64,000 bases of DNA from Bacteroidia bacterium (lineage in GTDB: Bacteria; Bacteroidota; Bacteroidia; B-17B0; Aurantibacillaceae), in assembly GCA_014378485.1 (NCBI GenBank), contig JACMNO010000061.1:62001-126000 (forward strand), given 5' to 3'. The position numbers and the translations under genes are program-made. The notes under the pieces are model-generated. The model was not told the origin of the DNA, ran no database searches, and worked only from the letters and a program-made list of their open reading frames with translations. Positions 8,196-64,000 of the stretch are shown piece after piece (the stretch's first letter is position 1; every line of letters starts with the position of its first letter).

Positions 8196-9167
8196 TTAAA
8201 ACTTAGGACAGCTCACCAAAATCCGTTTATTTCTTTTTTTCTTTTGGGCAATTTCATAGATTAATGAGATCTCATGAGCGCCCATGGTATTGGAAATCCC
8301 TAATTTTGAAACGGTGAGGTCATAACTGTATCCTACACGCAAATTGTATTCAGTTAAATCAAAGCCAACGAGTATAGCAACTGATTCTCTGCTGGCATAG
8401 GTTGCTGCATACTTTTTAAAGGGAAGCCCTCTGTACCATAAACCAACATTTAAAGGTAGGTGGTAGTAGTACAATCCAATATCCAGCTGATCATATTTTT
8501 GTTCATGGCGAAAATTAAATGCCGGTGAAAGGTATCGTTTTAACTCCTTTGATTTTTGTTCAATAATATAACGGTATCCACCATGTAAACTGATACTTAA
8601 AGGCAAAGGAACTTTGTCGCCGGTTAAGCTGCTGTTAGGTTGTGTTAAGTGTTTGGCGCTTAATCCCAGCCAGTATTCTGTTGAATTTAAAAGTGCGCCT
8701 GCTGCAAAATCCATAAAGTTTAATTGTTCATAGCGGCCAGCTTCAACCGACGTTCCTGAACCTGTTGCAATCTGGTCATTGAATTTTAATTTAGAAAAAT
8801 CAAGGCGCTTCATATTATAGTTTAAGTTGGCTCCCATTCGTATTTCTGAAAATTTACTGATTTTAAAATGATACGCATAATTCACGCCGAATTGCGTGTG
8901 GGTCAGCCCTGCTGTTCCTGCCCTGTCCTGCATCACCGTTATACCTATACCACTCTTAATATCAGACATATTATAATCATAACTGGCCATGTAGGTTTGG
9001 TAGGTTTTGCTGATGCCCGGCCATTGGTTCCTGTAATTTGCTACAAATCTGTGCTCATAAGTAAGACCAGTAAACGCAGGATTTAGATACATAGGTGCCG
9101 CATAGAACTGCGTGAACTGAGGATCCTGAGCTTTTATTTCAGTTGATGCCAAAAGTATTAAAAGCAA
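8196..9167 (-). CDS. PorP/SprF family type IX secretion system membrane protein
   Basis: The protein (323 aa from a TTG) carries the PorP/SprF hallmark right after the signal peptide: AQDPQFTQFYAAPMYLNPAFTG, followed by RNQWPG and a run of amphipathic barrel strands. SprF-type members sit in the outer membrane and assist secretion or attachment of the type B cargo encoded next to them. The start is uncertain: there is no ATG, and the frame upstream of the TTG adds a normal basic n-region (KQSTAYLKSL) reaching an ATT at 9195-9197, one base after the preceding stop. The true signal peptide is probably that longer one. Last gene of the trio with the PD40 and PKD proteins. Confidence 0.88.
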   Translation of the reverse strand: MLLILLASTEIKAQDPQFTQFYAAPMYLNPAFTGLTYEHRFVANYRNQWPGISKTYQTYMASYDYNMSDIKSGIGITVMQDRAGTAGLTHTQFGVNYAYHFKISKFSEIRMGANLNYNMKRLDFSKLKFNDQIATGSGTSVEAGRYEQLNFMDFAAGALLNSTEYWLGLSAKHLTQPNSSLTGDKVPLPLSISLHGGYRYIIEQKSKELKRYLSPAFNFRHEQKYDQLDIGLYYYHLPLNVGLWYRGLPFKKYAATYASRESVAILVGFDLTEYNLRVGYSYDLTVSKLGISNTMGAHEISLIYEIAQKKKRNKRILVSCPKF

Positions 9168-9198
9168 TGATTTTAAATATGCAGTTGACTGTTTAATA

Positions 9199-10761
9199 TT
9201 AATTCTTTTTAGTTAAACTTAAAATCAATTCTTTTTCTATTAGTTCATTCACGATAGGTTCAATGTCCACTATCATGGTTTGAAACCCATCTTCTTCCAC
9301 GATCGCTTTATAGGCTTTTAATGGATTCATTACTAGGATAAATTTTCCGGTTTTGGAATTCGCATTAAAAATACCGGATACCTGTTTACTTTCAATATCT
9401 ATTAAAGTGATTTTTGCTTTTTGAACTTCATTGCCAAATACAATTTTTCCTTGTTTTATTTTCAGGTCATTATCACCAAAACGGGTGTCTACCATAAAAA
9501 TATCAGAGCCGCCGTAAGTTTCTTCTTTAATGGAAGAATAATAGCCATGCGTGCAGTTGGTGTTTAACACAAAAAATATATCGTTATTAACTGTATTGAT
9601 CGGAAACCCTAAATTTTCAGGAGAAGAAAACACATTGGTCTCTGTATTTAAAATCGTTTTAAAAACATCATAATCTCCCATCGTATTATGTCCTTTGGAA
9701 CTGAAGTAAAGAGTGGTTCCATCGGGGTGAAGAAAGGGAGAATCTTCATCCTTAGCAGTATTGATGGTTGGTCCCAGGTTCATTGGCATTGACCATCTTC
9801 CATTAGGTAATTTTTTGATCCTGTAAATATCTTTTCCACCTAAGCCTCCAATTTTATTTGAGCTAAAATAGATCACACTCGTGTCATTACTAAAACAGGC
9901 GCTAGTTTCAATGTATGGCGTGTTGATTTCTGGCCCAAACTTTACAGGCTCTGACCATCCGTTAAAGTCCATTATGCTAAGGTATAAATCACCGGTGATC
10001 ATATCTGCGGCTGTTCTGTAGATGATCATCTTGTTCCCGTCAAAACTTAAAGCAACGCAGGCATCATGTGTACTTGTATTGATTGGTGGCCCGATATTTT
10101 TTGGTGTCCCCCATTTTCCGTCATCTCCTTTTTGAGAAATATATACATCTTCATAATAATTTCCATATGCATCTTTTAAGTTACCGGTGCTGCCTTCGCG
10201 GCGTGAAGTGAAATACAAAATGGTTTCATCCGGTGAGATCAATGGAACATAATCTGCGTATGGTGAATTAACAGTATTACCTAAGTTTTTGATAACCGAG
10301 CGGTGTGGCTGGCTTACCAGATCAATGGCATTTTTGCTGCAGCCAATTTGGTAATTCACTTCATCATCTAAAATGGTTCTTTTTTTAAGTGGTATGCCCT
10401 TATAATTTTCGTAACAACGGATAGCTTCTTCAAAATTGGAGGTTAGGTGATAAATTTTTCCGAAATAAAATTGCACTTCAGGTTTTGTACTGGTCTTTAA
10501 TTTCATTAGGTGACTAACGCATGAATCAGTGGGCTGGTTAAGTTTGATCCTGCTGATGACAGAATTCAGATTGGCTGCCTCGTGGTTCGGATTAATGGCC
10601 AGAACTTTTTTATACTGCTCAATGGCTTTAAGATAGTCTTCCGATTCAAAGAAAACATTTGCTGATTTTAAATCTTTAGCATACAGCTTTGAATTGATTT
10701 TTGTTTGCCCATAAATTTGCGCGGCAAATAAAAATAACGTAATGAGTATAAATAGTTTCAT
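9199..10761 (-). CDS. TPR and PD40 beta-propeller protein (PorE-like, no OmpA domain)
   Basis: This 520-aa exported protein has a signal peptide (about 1-18), a TPR segment (about 25-95; FFESEDYLKAIEQYKKVLAI), a PD40/WD40-like propeller (about 160-410, with repeated YFSS/YFTS blades such as DGTTLYFSSKGHNTMGDYDV), and a C-terminal carboxypeptidase-regulatory-like beta domain (about 430-510). PorE and similar T9SS periplasmic proteins share this order but end in an OmpA peptidoglycan-binding domain, which is absent here. It sits one base after the PKD gene and about thirty before the porP/sprF-like gene, so it likely acts with them at the outer membrane. Confidence 0.85.
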   Translation of the reverse strand: MKLFILITLFLFAAQIYGQTKINSKLYAKDLKSANVFFESEDYLKAIEQYKKVLAINPNHEAANLNSVISRIKLNQPTDSCVSHLMKLKTSTKPEVQFYFGKIYHLTSNFEEAIRCYENYKGIPLKKRTILDDEVNYQIGCSKNAIDLVSQPHRSVIKNLGNTVNSPYADYVPLISPDETILYFTSRREGSTGNLKDAYGNYYEDVYISQKGDDGKWGTPKNIGPPINTSTHDACVALSFDGNKMIIYRTAADMITGDLYLSIMDFNGWSEPVKFGPEINTPYIETSACFSNDTSVIYFSSNKIGGLGGKDIYRIKKLPNGRWSMPMNLGPTINTAKDEDSPFLHPDGTTLYFSSKGHNTMGDYDVFKTILNTETNVFSSPENLGFPINTVNNDIFFVLNTNCTHGYYSSIKEETYGGSDIFMVDTRFGDNDLKIKQGKIVFGNEVQKAKITLIDIESKQVSGIFNANSKTGKFILVMNPLKAYKAIVEEDGFQTMIVDIEPIVNELIEKELILSLTKKN

Positions 10762-15040: not shown

Positions 15041-15060
15041 GAGTACATTAATAAAATAAA

Positions 15061-15428
15061 AACAGGTTCTATAAGCCGGGTTCTGTTTCGTAAGCCTTTC
15101 AGCAAACGACTCCCATCATTTATCTATGCAGCCTACCCTCTCTGATATAACCGAGGTTATTGTGACGAGCCGCCACAAGATCAGCGTATACATGGCCTTA
15201 CAACACAAGAGGTTTGTCCTATGCAGCTGTTACCAACTGCACATGTGAGCTCTTACCTCACATTTTCACTATGACCGCCCACCGAAATGAATGGCTACTT
15301 GGTTTTCTGTGACACTATCTGTTATTCTTTCATTCCTAAAAATATACCCATCCTTTCAGATGGCAAATTGCCCTATGTTGCCCGGACTTTCCTCCCTTAA
15401 AATAAAGAGCGATGAAACAAACCTGTTT
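15061..15428 (-). ncRNA. rnpB: RNase P RNA (type A)
   Basis: On the minus strand the sequence holds the conserved core of bacterial RNase P RNA: GAGGAAAGTCCGGGC near the 5' end, GTAAGAGCTCACAT (CR-II/III region), GATAAATGATGG, and ACAGAACCCGGCTTA at the 3' end. The P1 helix closes between AACAGGTT (near 15421-15428) and AACCTGTT (15061-15068), which sets the ends to within a few bases. It processes the 5' ends of tRNA precursors. The 3' end lies only about 20 bases before the start codon of the PKD gene, with only a T-run between them. Confidence 0.95.
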
Positions 15429-59441: not shown

Positions 59442-62111
59442 TCAAAACAAAGCTTTTGCTTTTTCCATAGCTGAATTTAATCCTTCCATTTTACTTCCAC
59501 CTGCTTGTGCATAAAAAGGTTGTCCGCCACCGCCACCATTAATTTCTTTTGCAAGATCTCGAATAATGTTTCCGGCATTTAAGTTTTTTTCTTTTACCAG
59601 ATTATCATCTATGATCACTGAAATGCTTGGCTTACCTTTAACTTCAGCACCAATCACACAAACACAGTTTTCAACCTGATTGCGGATCTCAAACAATATA
59701 TTTTTTATTTCTTCGGCGCTGTCAAACGATATTTTTTCGATAATGACATTGATGCCATTTTTCGATTCTATTTTTGATAATAAAGTTTGCTTAATACTTT
59801 GTGCTTTTTCTTTTAATAAAGATTGTAATTGCTTTTGCAGATCATTGTTATCTTCTATTAAATTACTTAAGCTTTTTATCACATCTTTATTATTCTTCAA
59901 TAAAGCTTTCACTTCATTTAAAGTGGCGATCTGATCATTAAAAAACTCTTCCGCTTTAATTGCAGTTACTGCTTCAATACGACGGATGCCGGCAGCTACA
60001 GCGCTTTCTGAAATGATCTTGAAATAACCTATCTGGCCGGTTGCTTTCACGTGCGTTCCACCACATAATTCAATGGAATAATTTTTGTCAAATTCAACCA
60101 CGCGAACTACATCTCCATATTTTTCGCCAAACAATGCCATTGCGCCTGTTTTTTTTGCGTCATCAATAGTCATTTGTTGAATATTACTGAAAAGGTTCTC
60201 ACGAATTTTTGTGTTAACTATTTTTTCGATTTCGTATAATTCTTCGTCAGTAATTTTTGAAAAATGAGAAAAGTCAAAACGCAAATGCTCATCGTTTACC
60301 AAACTTCCTTTTTGTTCTACATGTGTTCCTAAAACCTGGCGTAATGCCGCATGCAATAAGTGAGTGGCACTATGGTTATTTTCAGTGAAACTACGTTTAT
60401 TCTTATTTACTTTTGCCATGAAGGTAGCTTCCATGTTTTCAGGAAGTTTATCGCAAAAATGAATAATCACACCGTTCTCTTTTTTGGTATCTGTAATGTT
60501 GATGGTTTCATTGATATTGGATAATGTTCCGGCATCTCCAATCTGGCCGCCGCTTTCTGCATAAAAAGGTGTTTTATCCAATACTAATTGAAACTGCTCT
60601 TTGTTTTTAGCCTTTACTTTTCGGTAACGAACAATATTGCTTTCGCATTCTAATTCTGAGTAGCCAACAAATTCTGTTTCTGCAATTGTGTTATCTATTG
60701 ATTTCTTATTTTTCTCAATTAATATCCAATCATCTGTATCAATTGACGTTGCAGCACGCGAACGGTTTTTTTGTTCAGTTAACAATCTGTTAAACTCTAC
60801 TTCATCAATACTTAAATCATAGCCACGCGCAATCAATGAGGTTAAGTCTAAAGGAAAACCAAAAGTATCATATAATTCAAATACTAATTTGCCATCAATT
60901 ACTTTACCGGTATGGGCGGATGTTAAATCAATACAAACCTGGTCAATACGCTTTAAACCAATTTCCAGGGTTTTATAAAATGATGTTTCTTCTTCCTTAA
61001 TTACTTTTTCTATCAATATTTTTTGAGAGTTCAGTTCAGGAAATTGCTGTCCTAATTGATGCGCTAAAGTTGGAACAATACGGTACATGAAAGGTTCTTT
61101 AATATTTAAAGACTGATAACCATAACGAATGGCACGACGTAAGATTCGTCGGATCACATAACCTGCACCGGTATTACTGGGTAACTGTCCATCCGCGATT
61201 GAAAAAGAAATTGTTCTAATATGATCCGCTATCACACGCATGGCAATATTAATGATCAGTTGTTTTTTGTGCTTATTTTCATCTTCTGGCTTATATCGAA
61301 GCCCGCTTAACTCTTCAATTTTGTTTAATAAAGGAGTAAATACATCGGTATCATAGTTGGATTGCTTTCCCTGTAAAACACGAACTAAACGTTCAAAGCC
61401 CATTCCAGTATCCACATGTTGTGCCGGCAATTTTTCAAGACTTTTATCCGCCTTGCGCATGAACTCCATAAATACATTGTTCCAAACTTCAATCACCTGC
61501 GGATCGTCGTTATTAACTAACGTAGCACCATCTACTTTTGCTCTTTCAGCATCGCTTCTTCCATCATAATGAATTTCAGTACATGGCCCGCACGGACCAG
61601 TATCTCCCATTTCCCAGAAGTTATCCTTTTTATTTCCTTTTAAAATTCTTTTTTCGTCAATGTATAATTTCCAGGTATCATAAGCTTCCTGGACGAAGGG
61701 AACATTTTCTTCAACGCTTCCTTCAAACACGGTTACGTATAAACGTGATTTATCAATTTTATAAACTTCAGTCAGTAATTCCCACGCCCAGGCAATAGCA
61801 TCTTTTTTAAAGTAGTCGCCAAAGCTCCAGTTACCAAGCATTTCAAACATGGTATGGTGATAAGTGTCCACACCAACTTCTTCCAGGTCATTATGTTTCC
61901 CGCTTACACGTAAACATTTTTGTGTATCAGCCACTCTTGAAAATTTAATAGGTGCATTGCCTAAAAAAATATCTTTAAAAGGTGCCATGCCTGAGTTGAT
62001 AAACATAAGCGTAGGATCTCCCTTAACTACCATTGAGGCAGAAGGAACAATTTCATGGCCTTTTGATTTAAAAAAATCTAAAAATGTTTGACGTACTTTA
62101 TTTGATTCCAT
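59442..62111 (-). CDS. alaS: Alanine--tRNA ligase
   Basis: The 889-aa enzyme charges tRNA-Ala. The class II catalytic core is at the N-terminus (about 1-250; HHTMFEMLGNWSFGDYFKKD, MGDTGPCGPCTEIHYDG), the editing domain in the middle (about 555-710) with the zinc site HSATHLLHAAL and CGGTHV, and the C-Ala domain at the end (about 800-889; IRDLAKEINGGGGGQPFYAQ). All motifs are intact. The palindrome-bracketed ATPase cassette begins 107 bases upstream of its start codon. Confidence 0.97.
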   Translation of the reverse strand: MESNKVRQTFLDFFKSKGHEIVPSASMVVKGDPTLMFINSGMAPFKDIFLGNAPIKFSRVADTQKCLRVSGKHNDLEEVGVDTYHHTMFEMLGNWSFGDYFKKDAIAWAWELLTEVYKIDKSRLYVTVFEGSVEENVPFVQEAYDTWKLYIDEKRILKGNKKDNFWEMGDTGPCGPCTEIHYDGRSDAERAKVDGATLVNNDDPQVIEVWNNVFMEFMRKADKSLEKLPAQHVDTGMGFERLVRVLQGKQSNYDTDVFTPLLNKIEELSGLRYKPEDENKHKKQLIINIAMRVIADHIRTISFSIADGQLPSNTGAGYVIRRILRRAIRYGYQSLNIKEPFMYRIVPTLAHQLGQQFPELNSQKILIEKVIKEEETSFYKTLEIGLKRIDQVCIDLTSAHTGKVIDGKLVFELYDTFGFPLDLTSLIARGYDLSIDEVEFNRLLTEQKNRSRAATSIDTDDWILIEKNKKSIDNTIAETEFVGYSELECESNIVRYRKVKAKNKEQFQLVLDKTPFYAESGGQIGDAGTLSNINETINITDTKKENGVIIHFCDKLPENMEATFMAKVNKNKRSFTENNHSATHLLHAALRQVLGTHVEQKGSLVNDEHLRFDFSHFSKITDEELYEIEKIVNTKIRENLFSNIQQMTIDDAKKTGAMALFGEKYGDVVRVVEFDKNYSIELCGGTHVKATGQIGYFKIISESAVAAGIRRIEAVTAIKAEEFFNDQIATLNEVKALLKNNKDVIKSLSNLIEDNNDLQKQLQSLLKEKAQSIKQTLLSKIESKNGINVIIEKISFDSAEEIKNILFEIRNQVENCVCVIGAEVKGKPSISVIIDDNLVKEKNLNAGNIIRDLAKEINGGGGGQPFYAQAGGSKMEGLNSAMEKAKALF

Positions 62112-62217: not shown

Positions 62218-62272
62218 AAATATCAATCATGAAAATCGAAATTTATAGTTTTGATTTTCATGGTTGATATTT
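62218..62272. repeat. Cassette palindrome, copy 1
   Basis: The arms begin AAATATCAATCATGAAAATC and end GATTTTCATGGTTGATATTT, around a central loop, making an imperfect palindrome of 55 bases with core CATGAAAATC (62228-62237) and GATTTTCATG (62253-62262). The same core recurs at 62311-62351 and 63541-63583. Confidence 0.85.
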
Positions 62273-62310
62273 GTATTTAATTTTACTAAAATAAATATTT
62301 TATTCATATT

Positions 62311-62351
62311 TACCATGAAAATCAAAAATTTGTTTTTTGATTTTCATGGTA
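62311..62351. repeat. Cassette palindrome, copy 2
   Basis: TACCATGAAAATCAAAAA (62311-62328) and its exact complement (62334-62351) form an 18-bp perfect inverted repeat with a 5-base loop. The right arm includes TTTG (62336-62339), the -33 element of the following gene. Confidence 0.9.
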
Positions 62352-62366
62352 AAATATTTATATTTG
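62336..62366 (+). promoter_or_regulatory. Promoter of the DUF4143 ATPase gene (inside palindrome 2)
   Basis: TTTG (62336-62339), a spacer of 19 bases and TATATTTG (62359-62366) match the Bacteroidota promoter fully. The ATG at 62371 is only four bases from the -7 element, so transcription should start at or next to the start codon, giving a leaderless mRNA. Confidence 0.65.
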
Positions 62367-62370
62367 TAAT

Positions 62371-63543
62371 ATGATCAACAGAGATATATTATCAAAAATT
62401 GAATTAATGCTAAAGGAGTTTCCTGTTGTTTGCCTTCTAGGACCGAGACAGGTAGGTAAAACTACTATTGCCAAATCATTTAAAGTAGTTAATAAGAAAG
62501 AAGCCGTTTATTTGGATTTAGAAAAGCAGTCTGATTTAAAAAAAATTGAAGATGTTGAATTATATTTATTACACCACCGTAATGATTTTGTGATAATAGA
62601 TGAAGTGCAATACAGGCCGGAAATTTTTTCGTGTTTACGTCCTGAAGTTGATGAGAAAAGAGTAAATGGCAGATTCTTGATTACCGGTTCTGCTGCTCCG
62701 GAACTGGTAAAAGGTGTTTCGGAAAGCTTAGCCGGTAGAATCTGTTACTTAGAGATGTATCCTATATCTATAACGGAAGCATTAAAAGCTAAAGTTAAAT
62801 TAACGACCCATTGGTTACGAGGAGGTTTTCCAAGCGCGTTAAATGCAAAAAACAATGAAATAGCAGAACGTTGGAGAGAAAATTTTGTAAAATCATTTGC
62901 TGAAAGAGATTTATCGGCATTATTTGGCGTTATGTTATCAAGTTCAATTGTAAAAAACTTTTGGGAAATGTTGGCAGGTACGCAAGGTAGTGTTTGGAAC
63001 GCCGCTAATTTCGGGCGTTCATTAGGGATATCAGCACCTACAACTAATAAGTATTTAGATTTATTAGAAGGTGCTTACATGGTAAGGAAATTACCGGCGT
63101 GGTATGTTAATGCCACTAAACGTTTAGTTAAAGCACCAAAAATTTACATTAGAGATAGTGGGATTTTGCACCATTTTAATCAAATCACAAATCTTAAAGA
63201 TTTACCCGGACATATTATTACCGGCGCTTCATGGGAAGGATATGTGATTGAGGAAATTTGTAAAAAACTGCCAAATCATATTCGTCCTTTTTTTTATAGA
63301 ACCCACCAGGGTGCCGAAATAGATTTGGTATTAGTTAAAGGATTGAAAGCCATTGCAGCCATTGAAATTAAATATTCATTGTCGCCATCAGTTAGCAAAG
63401 GATTTTATGAGGCTTTAGATGATTTAGGTAATCCCTTATCTTTTGTTGTTATTCCGTCTGGCATGGCATATAAAACAAAGCAAAACAGTAAGGTGATTTC
63501 GTTAGAAGAATTTATCTTAAAAGATTTATTGAAAGTATTTTAA
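62371..63543 (+). CDS. AAA ATPase with C-terminal DUF4143 nuclease-like domain
   Basis: The 390-aa protein belongs to the COG1373/DUF4143 group. The N-terminal P-loop ATPase has Walker A GPRQVGKT (24-31), Walker B VIIDEVQ (74-80) and a sensor-like FLITGSAAPEL. The middle is helical and probably a winged helix (SLGISAPTTNKYLDLLEGAY). The C-terminal domain has E316-x-D318 and E332-x-K334 (GAEIDLVLV, AIEIKYS), the spacing of a PD-(D/E)XK nuclease. Substrate and role of the family are not settled. The gene is alone, framed by three copies of one palindrome; its stop codon starts the third copy. Confidence 0.92.
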   Translation: MINRDILSKIELMLKEFPVVCLLGPRQVGKTTIAKSFKVVNKKEAVYLDLEKQSDLKKIEDVELYLLHHRNDFVIIDEVQYRPEIFSCLRPEVDEKRVNGRFLITGSAAPELVKGVSESLAGRICYLEMYPISITEALKAKVKLTTHWLRGGFPSALNAKNNEIAERWRENFVKSFAERDLSALFGVMLSSSIVKNFWEMLAGTQGSVWNAANFGRSLGISAPTTNKYLDLLEGAYMVRKLPAWYVNATKRLVKAPKIYIRDSGILHHFNQITNLKDLPGHIITGASWEGYVIEEICKKLPNHIRPFFYRTHQGAEIDLVLVKGLKAIAAIEIKYSLSPSVSKGFYEALDDLGNPLSFVVIPSGMAYKTKQNSKVISLEEFILKDLLKVF

Positions 63544-63583
63544 CCATGAAAATCGAAATTTTAAATTTTGATTTTCATGGTTA
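63541..63583. repeat. Cassette palindrome, copy 3 (overlaps the stop codon)
   Basis: TAACCATGAAAATCGAAATT is mirrored by AATTTTGATTTTCATGGTTA with only one mismatched pair in the arms; the first three bases are the stop codon of the ATPase gene. As RNA it would form a hairpin followed by a T-rich stretch and might serve as terminator. Confidence 0.85.
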
Positions 63584-63659: not shown

Positions 63660-64000
63660 ATGTCAAAAGTAAAATATAAATTTAATACCAAATCCCTAAC
63701 CTACGAAAAAGTAAAAATTACTTTTAGGCAGCGTTTGCTTCAGGTATTCTCTTACCTGGCTATTGGATTGGTATTTGCAGCTGTAACCATTTTATTAGGT
63801 TACCGGTTTTTACCTTCTCCCATGCAGAAAAAGCAAAACAGGGAATTGGAAGTAGTTAAACTTCAGTACGAGCTTCTCAATAAAAAAATGAACCAGGTTC
63901 AAACGGTTTTAAATGATCTACAGGACAGGGATGATAATATTTACAGGGTTATTTTTGAAGCAGAACCAATTCCAAGCACAGTAAGACAAGCAGGTTTTGG
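63660..64000 (+). CDS. M23 family peptidase, N-terminal part (runs off the window)
   Basis: The first 113 codons are present. The product starts MSKVKYKFNTKSLTYEKVKI, has one membrane helix (about 31-50; LAIGLVFAAVTILLGYRF), a coiled-coil stretch (about 60-95; LEVVKLQYELLNKKMNQVQT) and LQDRDDNIYRVIFEAEPIP. This is the N-terminus of membrane-anchored M23 endopeptidases that, as I recall, often lie next to alaS in Bacteroidota. The peptidase domain is beyond the window, so the call rests on this typical N-terminus and position. Confidence 0.7.
   Translation, partial: MSKVKYKFNTKSLTYEKVKITFRQRLLQVFSYLAIGLVFAAVTILLGYRFLPSPMQKKQNRELEVVKLQYELLNKKMNQVQTVLNDLQDRDDNIYRVIFEAEPIPSTVRQAGF

Follow-up and report, generated by a model that had tools for sequence, protein, structure and literature searches.

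The gene described here belongs, by hidden Markov model (HMM), to the same protein family as PDC-S01 of PADLOC, in which an AAA_14 and a DUF4143 domain are combined. PDC-S01 has been ranked as the fourth most common prokaryotic defence system when putative systems are included, with 29,494 bacterial and 9,986 archaeal loci, and validation is pending for most such defence candidates (PMC12988326). The portions of the PDC-S01 literature consulted describe no function, DNA target or linked repeat, and no match to a palindrome or residue-base code of the DUF4143 family was found in the literature searched, which consisted mostly of open-access papers without preprints. The DUF4143 gene is widespread, has no assigned function and is listed as a possible phage-defence gene, and it is adjoined by a palindrome of its own. 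The present work predicts a DNA target beside a PDC-S01-type gene and names the residues that would read it; the code obtained yields one-residue, one-base swaps as a direct test, and a nuclease-domain loop reading a base by a near one-to-one code would be of interest for studies of DNA recognition.

Autoregulated operons, such as those of toxin-antitoxin systems and restriction-modification controller proteins, carry palindromic operators. The locus resembles these in that a dyad site lies over the promoter of the gene whose product presumably targets it; it differs in that the site spans approximately 40 bp and is apparently read also by the nuclease domain, in that some family members carry it again after the stop codon, and in that there is no partner gene. 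No methyltransferase partner of the restriction-modification kind was found, the sole open reading frame of at least 60 amino acids between palindromes 1 and 3 being the gene itself. In REP/RAYT pairs palindromes likewise bracket a gene whose product presumably recognises them, but no Y1 (HUH) transposase domain was found in the present protein (Pfam) and the palindrome is undispersed, its three copies all lying at the gene. The locus also shares with homing endonucleases a compact one-gene organisation and a presumed sequence-specific nuclease; here, however, the recognised site lies within the cassette, and within the genus the palindrome is missing where the site is empty (it occurs in only the three filled genomes of 20). 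Orc1/Cdc6, RuvB and STAND ATPases, which are among the fold matches, share the order of an AAA ATPase followed by a winged helix, but are not known to carry a PD-(D/E)XK domain.

Layout of the cassette and its protein

Between alaS and an M23 gene, the window, by which is meant the whole 64-kb stretch of DNA analysed, contains three palindromes and an intact AAA_14-DUF4143 gene, arranged as follows:

59442-62111, minus strand: alaS, left neighbour (Pfam scan)
62218-62272, unstranded: palindrome 1, 5' outer copy; 24-nt arms, 92% complementary
62309-62353, unstranded: palindrome 2, promoter copy; 20-nt arms, 100% complementary
62359-62366, plus strand: TATATTTG, promoter box, ending 4 nt before the ATG
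62371-63543, plus strand: AAA_14-wHTH-DUF4143 (PD-(D/E)XK) gene, 390 amino acids, intact; Pfam PF13173 and PF13635
62422-62781, plus strand: AAA_14 ATPase domain, residues 18-137; Walker A K30, Walker B D77-E78
62992-63156, plus strand: winged helix-turn-helix, residues 208-262 (AlphaFold model and covariation)
63220-63501, plus strand: PD-(D/E)XK nuclease domain, residues 284-377 (Pfam, model, conservation and covariation)
63541-63583, unstranded: palindrome 3, 3' copy, beginning with the TAA stop codon (63541-63543)
63660-64000, plus strand: M23 gene, right neighbour, 323 amino acids, continuing past the window end

Three palindromes bracketing the gene had been proposed in the initial annotation, and this layout was borne out with slightly shifted edges (the promoter copy, earlier placed at 62311-62351, lies at 62309-62353). 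Masked-arm identity to palindrome 2 was 94% for palindrome 1 and 97% for palindrome 3. Palindrome 2 is centred at 62331, 39.5 bp before the ATG, and its CCATG half-site occupies 62313-62317 with the read base, an A, at 62315. The exact sequence CATGAAAATC was matched six times in the 64-kb window, these being the six palindrome arms; with one mismatch allowed, the same 10-mer gave 11 matches compared to 12 expected by chance, so that the special form is the exact, paired one only. The M23 label of the right neighbour is that of the initial annotation, a Pfam scan of its 113 in-window amino acids giving no match. At Rfam gathering scores the window contained RNase P only, as a bacterial class A RNase P RNA at 15056-15428 on the minus strand (RF00010, 176.5 bits).

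Both Pfam domains of the window protein exceeded their curated cut-offs (AAA_14: E 3e-27, 95.5 bits against 27; DUF4143: E 1e-41, 142.5 bits against 28.1); these were the only domains over cut-off, with no known transposase domain among them. The protein also matched the PADLOC PDC-S01 HMM with an E value of 4.8e-88. In the AlphaFold model, built on an alignment of 16 sequences (pLDDT 89.4), the winged helix-turn-helix was named from its pattern of helices and strands, and its recognition helix comprises residues 222-234. The residues referred to below as readers lie at two places: A222 and P223 (63034-63039) start the recognition helix, and H312 and Q313 (63304-63309) lie in the turn before the strand of D318.

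The presumed catalytic residues are E316, D318, E332 and K334, arranged as E316-I-D318 and E332-I-K334 (E-x-D...E-x-K). Across 66 class A, 50 class B and 83 new proteins (sets defined below), K30, D77, E78, E316 and D318 were invariant, position 332 was E or D in all, and K334 was conserved in 65/66, 50/50 and 82/83 proteins, respectively. Given this invariance of ATPase and nuclease residues, the nuclease is probably active, and would be positioned by its base-reading turn on the palindrome, where it might cut. Fold matches of the model were STAND/NLR-like and RuvB-like, those listed including P. abyssi 2qen, RuvB, Apaf-1 and ORC, with query TM-scores of 0.21-0.43 among the 50 fold matches listed; a sequence search of the window protein against solved structures returned nothing at E 0.001.

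Palindromes around homologous genes

A total of 151 distinct homologues with flanking DNA were collected from 60 relatives and 247 class genomes, and were divided by tblastn bit score to the window protein into class A (at least 240), class B (126-240) and class C (below 126), which is a working split and not a tree. Start codons were assigned from the alignment, some perhaps wrongly; two homologues whose upstream stretch was too short were dropped from the upstream count. Of the 67 class A, 62 class B and 20 class C homologues, 81%, 77% and 50%, respectively, had a palindrome with a tolerant score of at least 12 between positions -95 and +5 of the start, compared to 2.2% of shuffled sequences and 7.5% of 160 other genes. 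With a strict score of at least 15 (positions -90 to +5) the proportion was 39% of 149 homologues, compared to 0/745 shuffles and 0.6% of 160 other genes at the same loci.

Palindrome centres peaked approximately 38.5 bp before the ATG in class A and at 29.5 and 36.5 bp in class B, with a further group at 18.5 bp in which an arm reaches the start codon. Symmetry was strongest at offsets of approximately 4-19 and fell to background by 23-24, in sites that had themselves been picked by symmetry; this range fits two half-sites read by a symmetric protein. Six class B homologues (L148, L156, L159, L160, L161 and L176) had no clear palindrome, and by eye their promoters contain tandem direct repeats, e.g. 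GTGTAATTTCAAAAT, which may be iterated half-sites.

The window's TATATTTG matches the Bacteroidota -7 promoter box (consensus TAnnTTTG). A box of this type ending 3-5 nt before the ATG was present in 58/150 homologues compared to 3/161 other genes, and members of the subfamily of the window gene have their upstream palindrome centred approximately 38 bp before the ATG, just 5' of the box. Because the box ends so close to the ATG, the mRNAs would start at or near the start codon and the upstream palindrome would be promoter DNA; since it sits just upstream of the box, an operator is its simplest role. As in operator systems generally, the dyad site overlies the promoter of its own gene and takes preferred positions there.

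A matching 3' copy, defined as at least 75% alike with the centre masked and lying between 15 bp before and 250 bp after the stop, was found in 31/112 homologues with an upstream palindrome compared to 27/2222 swapped controls. Most such copies begin within approximately 30 bp of the stop, and a copy inside the gene was seen in 2/112 homologues. A matching 3' copy was present in 15 of the 25 homologues closest to the window gene (at least 353 bits), and in 15 of the 18 of these that were used in the windowed partial correlation described below.

The genomes were also searched from the DNA side. The pair pattern occurred three times in the whole genome of the window, always at the cassette, and its reversed control did not occur. 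Across 20 genus genomes including this one, a degenerate form (CATG or CGTG) was found only in G000, the window's own genome (three), G012 (one) and G013 (two), all at the DUF4143 cassette, and the CATG form with up to three mismatches gave the same places. Among 395 phylum genomes, eight contain CCRTGAAAAT together with its mirror, at a total of 10 places, nine of them beside a DUF4143 gene. The tenth (L356, in G595) is the same locus as the filled L310 in G619, with flanks 90% alike on both sides, and retains the palindrome together with a 59-bp scrap of the DUF4143 gene; it is a decayed cassette and represents a deletion scar rather than a precise excision. The expectation that the palindromes sit next to other DUF4143 genes therefore held in nine of ten places, and their common occurrence away from such genes, which would speak against a unit, was not seen. 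The L356/L310 locus lies between tRNA-Ala and an aconitase-like gene, the latter labelled by eye. In the 247 class genomes, CCTTGCAAAT with its mirror turned up at a single place, next to the L116 gene.

Homologues were present in 406 plasmid records and 12 phage records (E 1e-5), and at 17 viral-contig loci. Twenty plasmid stretches were fetched, 16 of which came from phyla other than Bacteroidota, and seven of these 16 (L225, L226, L232, L234, L238, L239 and L240) carry a palindrome scoring at least 12 centred within 45 bp of the start. The CCTTGCA-type palindrome of Rhizobium, Bosea and Ensifer (L225, L226 and L234) resembles that of Bacteroidota loci L116 and L119, a likeness across phyla which suggests that the palindrome follows the protein rather than the host.

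Covariation of reader residues and palindrome bases

Palindrome similarity was found to track protein identity (Mantel Spearman r =0.44; maximum of 300 permutations 0.07) in 120 genes with a palindrome centre within 55 bp of the ATG and more than 100 bits, external loci being admitted from score 11; windowed partial correlations were weak, at most 0.24. Covariation of protein columns with arm positions was then computed separately for class A (62 sequences, near-identical ones removed) and class B (45). Residue 313 with base 15 ranked first in class A (z 11.2), followed by 223/5, 222/6 and 312/12, while the order in class B was 223/4, 222/6, 312/13, 221/4 and 223/5. Residues 222, 223 and 312 thus appear in top pairs of both classes; 313/15 ranks 43rd in class B.

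In 66 class A genes, with two arms counted per gene and without weighting for relatedness, residue 313 was paired with base 15 as follows: D with C in 38/42 arms, A with T in 37/38, H with G in 12/14, Q with A in 6/6, N with A in 6/6, T with T in 6/6 and V with T in 6/8, with G, S and R mixed or few. The pairing of Asn or Gln with A and of His with G resembles known side-chain chemistry.

The code was frozen and applied to 83 new homologues from a search of 395 phylum genomes, which are not fully independent of the first set since they were filtered for exact identity to it alone and many come from one genus. No palindrome scoring at least 12 was found in 30 of the 83; of the remaining 53, 44 have a residue 313 covered by the code. 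The base was predicted correctly in 73/88 arms, and in both arms of 35 genes (permuted mean 34%, maximum of 2000 permutations 56%), and a code for residue 223 (P-A, K-G, H-G) was correct in 45/50 arms of 25 genes (permuted mean 53%, maximum 82%). The 15 mispredicted arms were distributed as follows (residue, base found): Q, T in 6/12; H, T in 4/16; T, A in 2/2; A, G in 2/12; and N, T in 1/36. Five genes (L242, L250, L253, L256 and L262) appear to have been centred between two copies, and when recentred by eye show CCATG with Q and CCGTG with H; the figure of 73/88 was left uncorrected for these. The loci found from the DNA side agree, with CCATG beside Q or N and CCGTG beside H in each of seven genes, six of which also belong to the out-of-sample set. 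When covariation was computed de novo in the new set (n =42), 313/15 ranked first of 6768 pairs, with 222/6 32nd, 223/5 41st and 312/12 170th; in the union of both sets (n =104) 313/15 again ranked first, of 6840 pairs, followed by 222/6, 223/5 and 312/12.

Disjoint nearest pairs of at least 40% identity were also compared, with G grouped among the T readers. A joint change of residue class and base was seen in 13 pairs, a change of the residue only in one, of the base only in four and of neither in 35 (Fisher P =4e-8). The same relation is visible at a single site, the window gene between alaS and M23 having Q313 and CCATG, and its counterparts at that site in G012 and G013 having H313 and CCGTG. 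By computation, a residue-base code is present at residue 313, residues 222-223 and residue 312. The earlier view that repeat and gene evolve together was upheld by the start palindromes of classes A and B, by the Mantel correlation and by the code at residue 313, and the covariation makes the palindrome the likely DNA target of the encoded protein, as had also been suggested.

A second class A paralogue is encoded in G000 itself (contig C46, 2506-3663; loci L005 and L035). It is 48% identical to the window protein and has D at residue 313. An ACCG-type palindrome follows its stop codon directly and a degenerate palindrome lies upstream of the gene; specificity would differ between the two proteins.

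Proposed role and competing explanations

We consider the gene and its palindromes to be, with a probability of roughly 0.8, a self-addressed unit whose protein binds its own palindrome, chiefly as a promoter operator. The pairing of gene and palindrome, the promoter position and the residue-base code were computed; physical binding, repression, the oligomeric state and any cutting we infer from sequence. The protein, with its ATPase, winged helix and PD-(D/E)XK domains, would bind the palindrome as a symmetric dimer or higher oligomer, the recognition helix (222-223) reading bases 4-6 from the centre in each half-site and the nuclease-domain loop beside the active site (312-313) reading bases 12-15. 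The upstream copy would lie over the promoter of a nearly leaderless mRNA, binding there most likely controlling the gene's own expression, and the 3' copy would be a second binding site at the far end, allowing looping or bracketing. It is possible that the palindromes also serve as ends or processing sites, as proposed in the initial annotation. The frequencies of the box (58/150), of palindromes in class C (50%) and of matching 3' copies (31/112) set limits on the operator reading.

An anti-phage or anti-plasmid defence gene, kept low by binding to its own promoter and with its nuclease freed or activated on invasion, is a plausible alternative to which we give somewhat less than even odds. 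In its favour are the strong match to PDC-S01, the STAND/NLR-like and RuvB-like fold matches and the patchy distribution of homologues. Paralogues within one genome differed in their reader residues in 29/30 pairs, a raw count made in hand-listed genomes with loci lacking a usable palindrome left out. PDC-S01 is, however, itself a candidate awaiting validation like most of its kind, and the window gene's neighbours, alaS and the M23 gene, do not form a defence island. In locus L037, a methyltransferase-like open reading frame, labelled by eye, lies approximately 4 kb downstream (8556-9206).

The history of the site bears on whether the cassette moves. The M23 gene was found in 18/20 genus genomes, and has the DUF4143 cassette beside it in three of these (G000, G012 and G013). 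In 11/18 the site is empty, alaS and the M23 gene adjoining each other with 148-267 bp between them, and in the remaining 4/18 neither alaS nor the DUF gene lies within the 1.5 kb examined beside the M23 gene. Relatives with an empty site had been anticipated, and the contrary case of a cassette present throughout the lineage was not encountered. In a nucleotide tree of the M23 gene the filled genomes are scattered, G000 grouping with the empty G007 and G016, G012 with the empty G006, and G013 with G018, in which the upstream region is different. Between G012 and G013 the DUF proteins share 82% identity, and each is 72-73% identical to that of the window. Either several gains or several clean losses have occurred at the alaS-M23 site.

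Elsewhere, 82 locus pairs were found to share a gene block of at least 78% nucleotide identity, and 45 of these (identity at most 93%) had no match in either flank, at least 500 bp being looked at on each side. The common blocks of the 45 pairs end around the single DUF4143 gene: left edges fall at -42 to -50 in 33/45, which is about where the palindrome ends on its outer side, and right edges range from -64 to +59 relative to the stop and precede it in 32/45. According to genome taxonomy labels, five pairs span different families (members L162, L165, L167 and L023, from G138, G134, G073 and G014), two link separate genera of the same family and 38 stay inside a single genus; since the pairs share members, 45 is not a number of events. 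A further pair, L162/L167, is 93% identical across two families with no flank match (block -84 to +93), and falls outside the 45 by its right edge alone. The same conserved segments flank L317, L299, L301 and L305, which makes these pairs weaker as evidence of movement. The pair L261/L264 (98%) was set aside, as its flanks share other matches.

Horizontal movement of gene and palindrome, in some cases across families, is shown by these data. As in transposons, the same unit recurs in unrelated flanks and empty sites exist, in pairs that are non-independent and lie partly within one hot spot. The initial suggestion that gene and palindromes move as a unit is supported to the extent that the block recurs in unrelated surroundings; the REP/RAYT-like logic and dispersal attached to it are not, the palindrome not being scattered in genomes.

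A single-gene mobile element, in which the protein would cut at or near the bracketing palindromes and so move the cassette, is compatible with an operator role, but we regard it as rather doubtful. It is favoured by the near-invariance of E316, D318, E332 and K334 with a base-reading loop adjacent, by the bracketing copies in 15 of the 25 nearest homologues, by the homologues on plasmids, by the pairs without flank match, their left edges and the cross-family cases among them, and by the empty sites and scattered filled species of the genus. No target duplication or exact empty junction was found in an analysis that covered junction alignments of six pairs, nor was a clean empty site for the L317 cassette when searched with joined flanks. 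Horizontal transfer by other means would look alike, and the pairs share members and lie mostly within one genus; L317 with L299, L301 and L305 may be one locus with fast-changing surroundings, and the cassette could be ancestral at the alaS-M23 site and have been lost repeatedly. In addition, the sole solo palindrome is a deletion scar and most genes lack a 3' copy. Slightly less likely again is the broader proposal that DUF4143/PDC-S01 genes form a very large, hitherto unrecognised class of one-gene mobile elements, in which an ATPase-controlled nuclease would read its own palindromic ends by an amino acid-to-base code, regulate itself via the 5' end and spread by palindrome cutting.

A role of the palindromes as mRNA hairpins, in translation control or processing, is very improbable. 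Their arms are long enough to form hairpins, and arm mismatches in the new set were G-T in 28 cases and A-C in 14, but this asymmetry is weak and was absent from the first set (33 compared to 33). In many genes the promoter box lies between palindrome and ATG, so that the upstream copy is not in that mRNA, and the amino acid-base code is most easily explained on duplex DNA.

That ordinary terminators or REP-like repeats lie beside the gene by chance, as might be supposed from 3' palindromes as a class being little commoner (15%) than after other genes (12%), is contradicted by the excess of matching 3' copies over swapped controls, by the upstream enrichment and by the palindrome not being dispersed in genomes, and can practically be dismissed. 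The informative 3' palindromes are only those matching the 5' copy. At L117, two DUF4143 genes lie in tandem with a strong palindrome between them, which belongs to the start of the second gene and does not duplicate the palindrome of the first.
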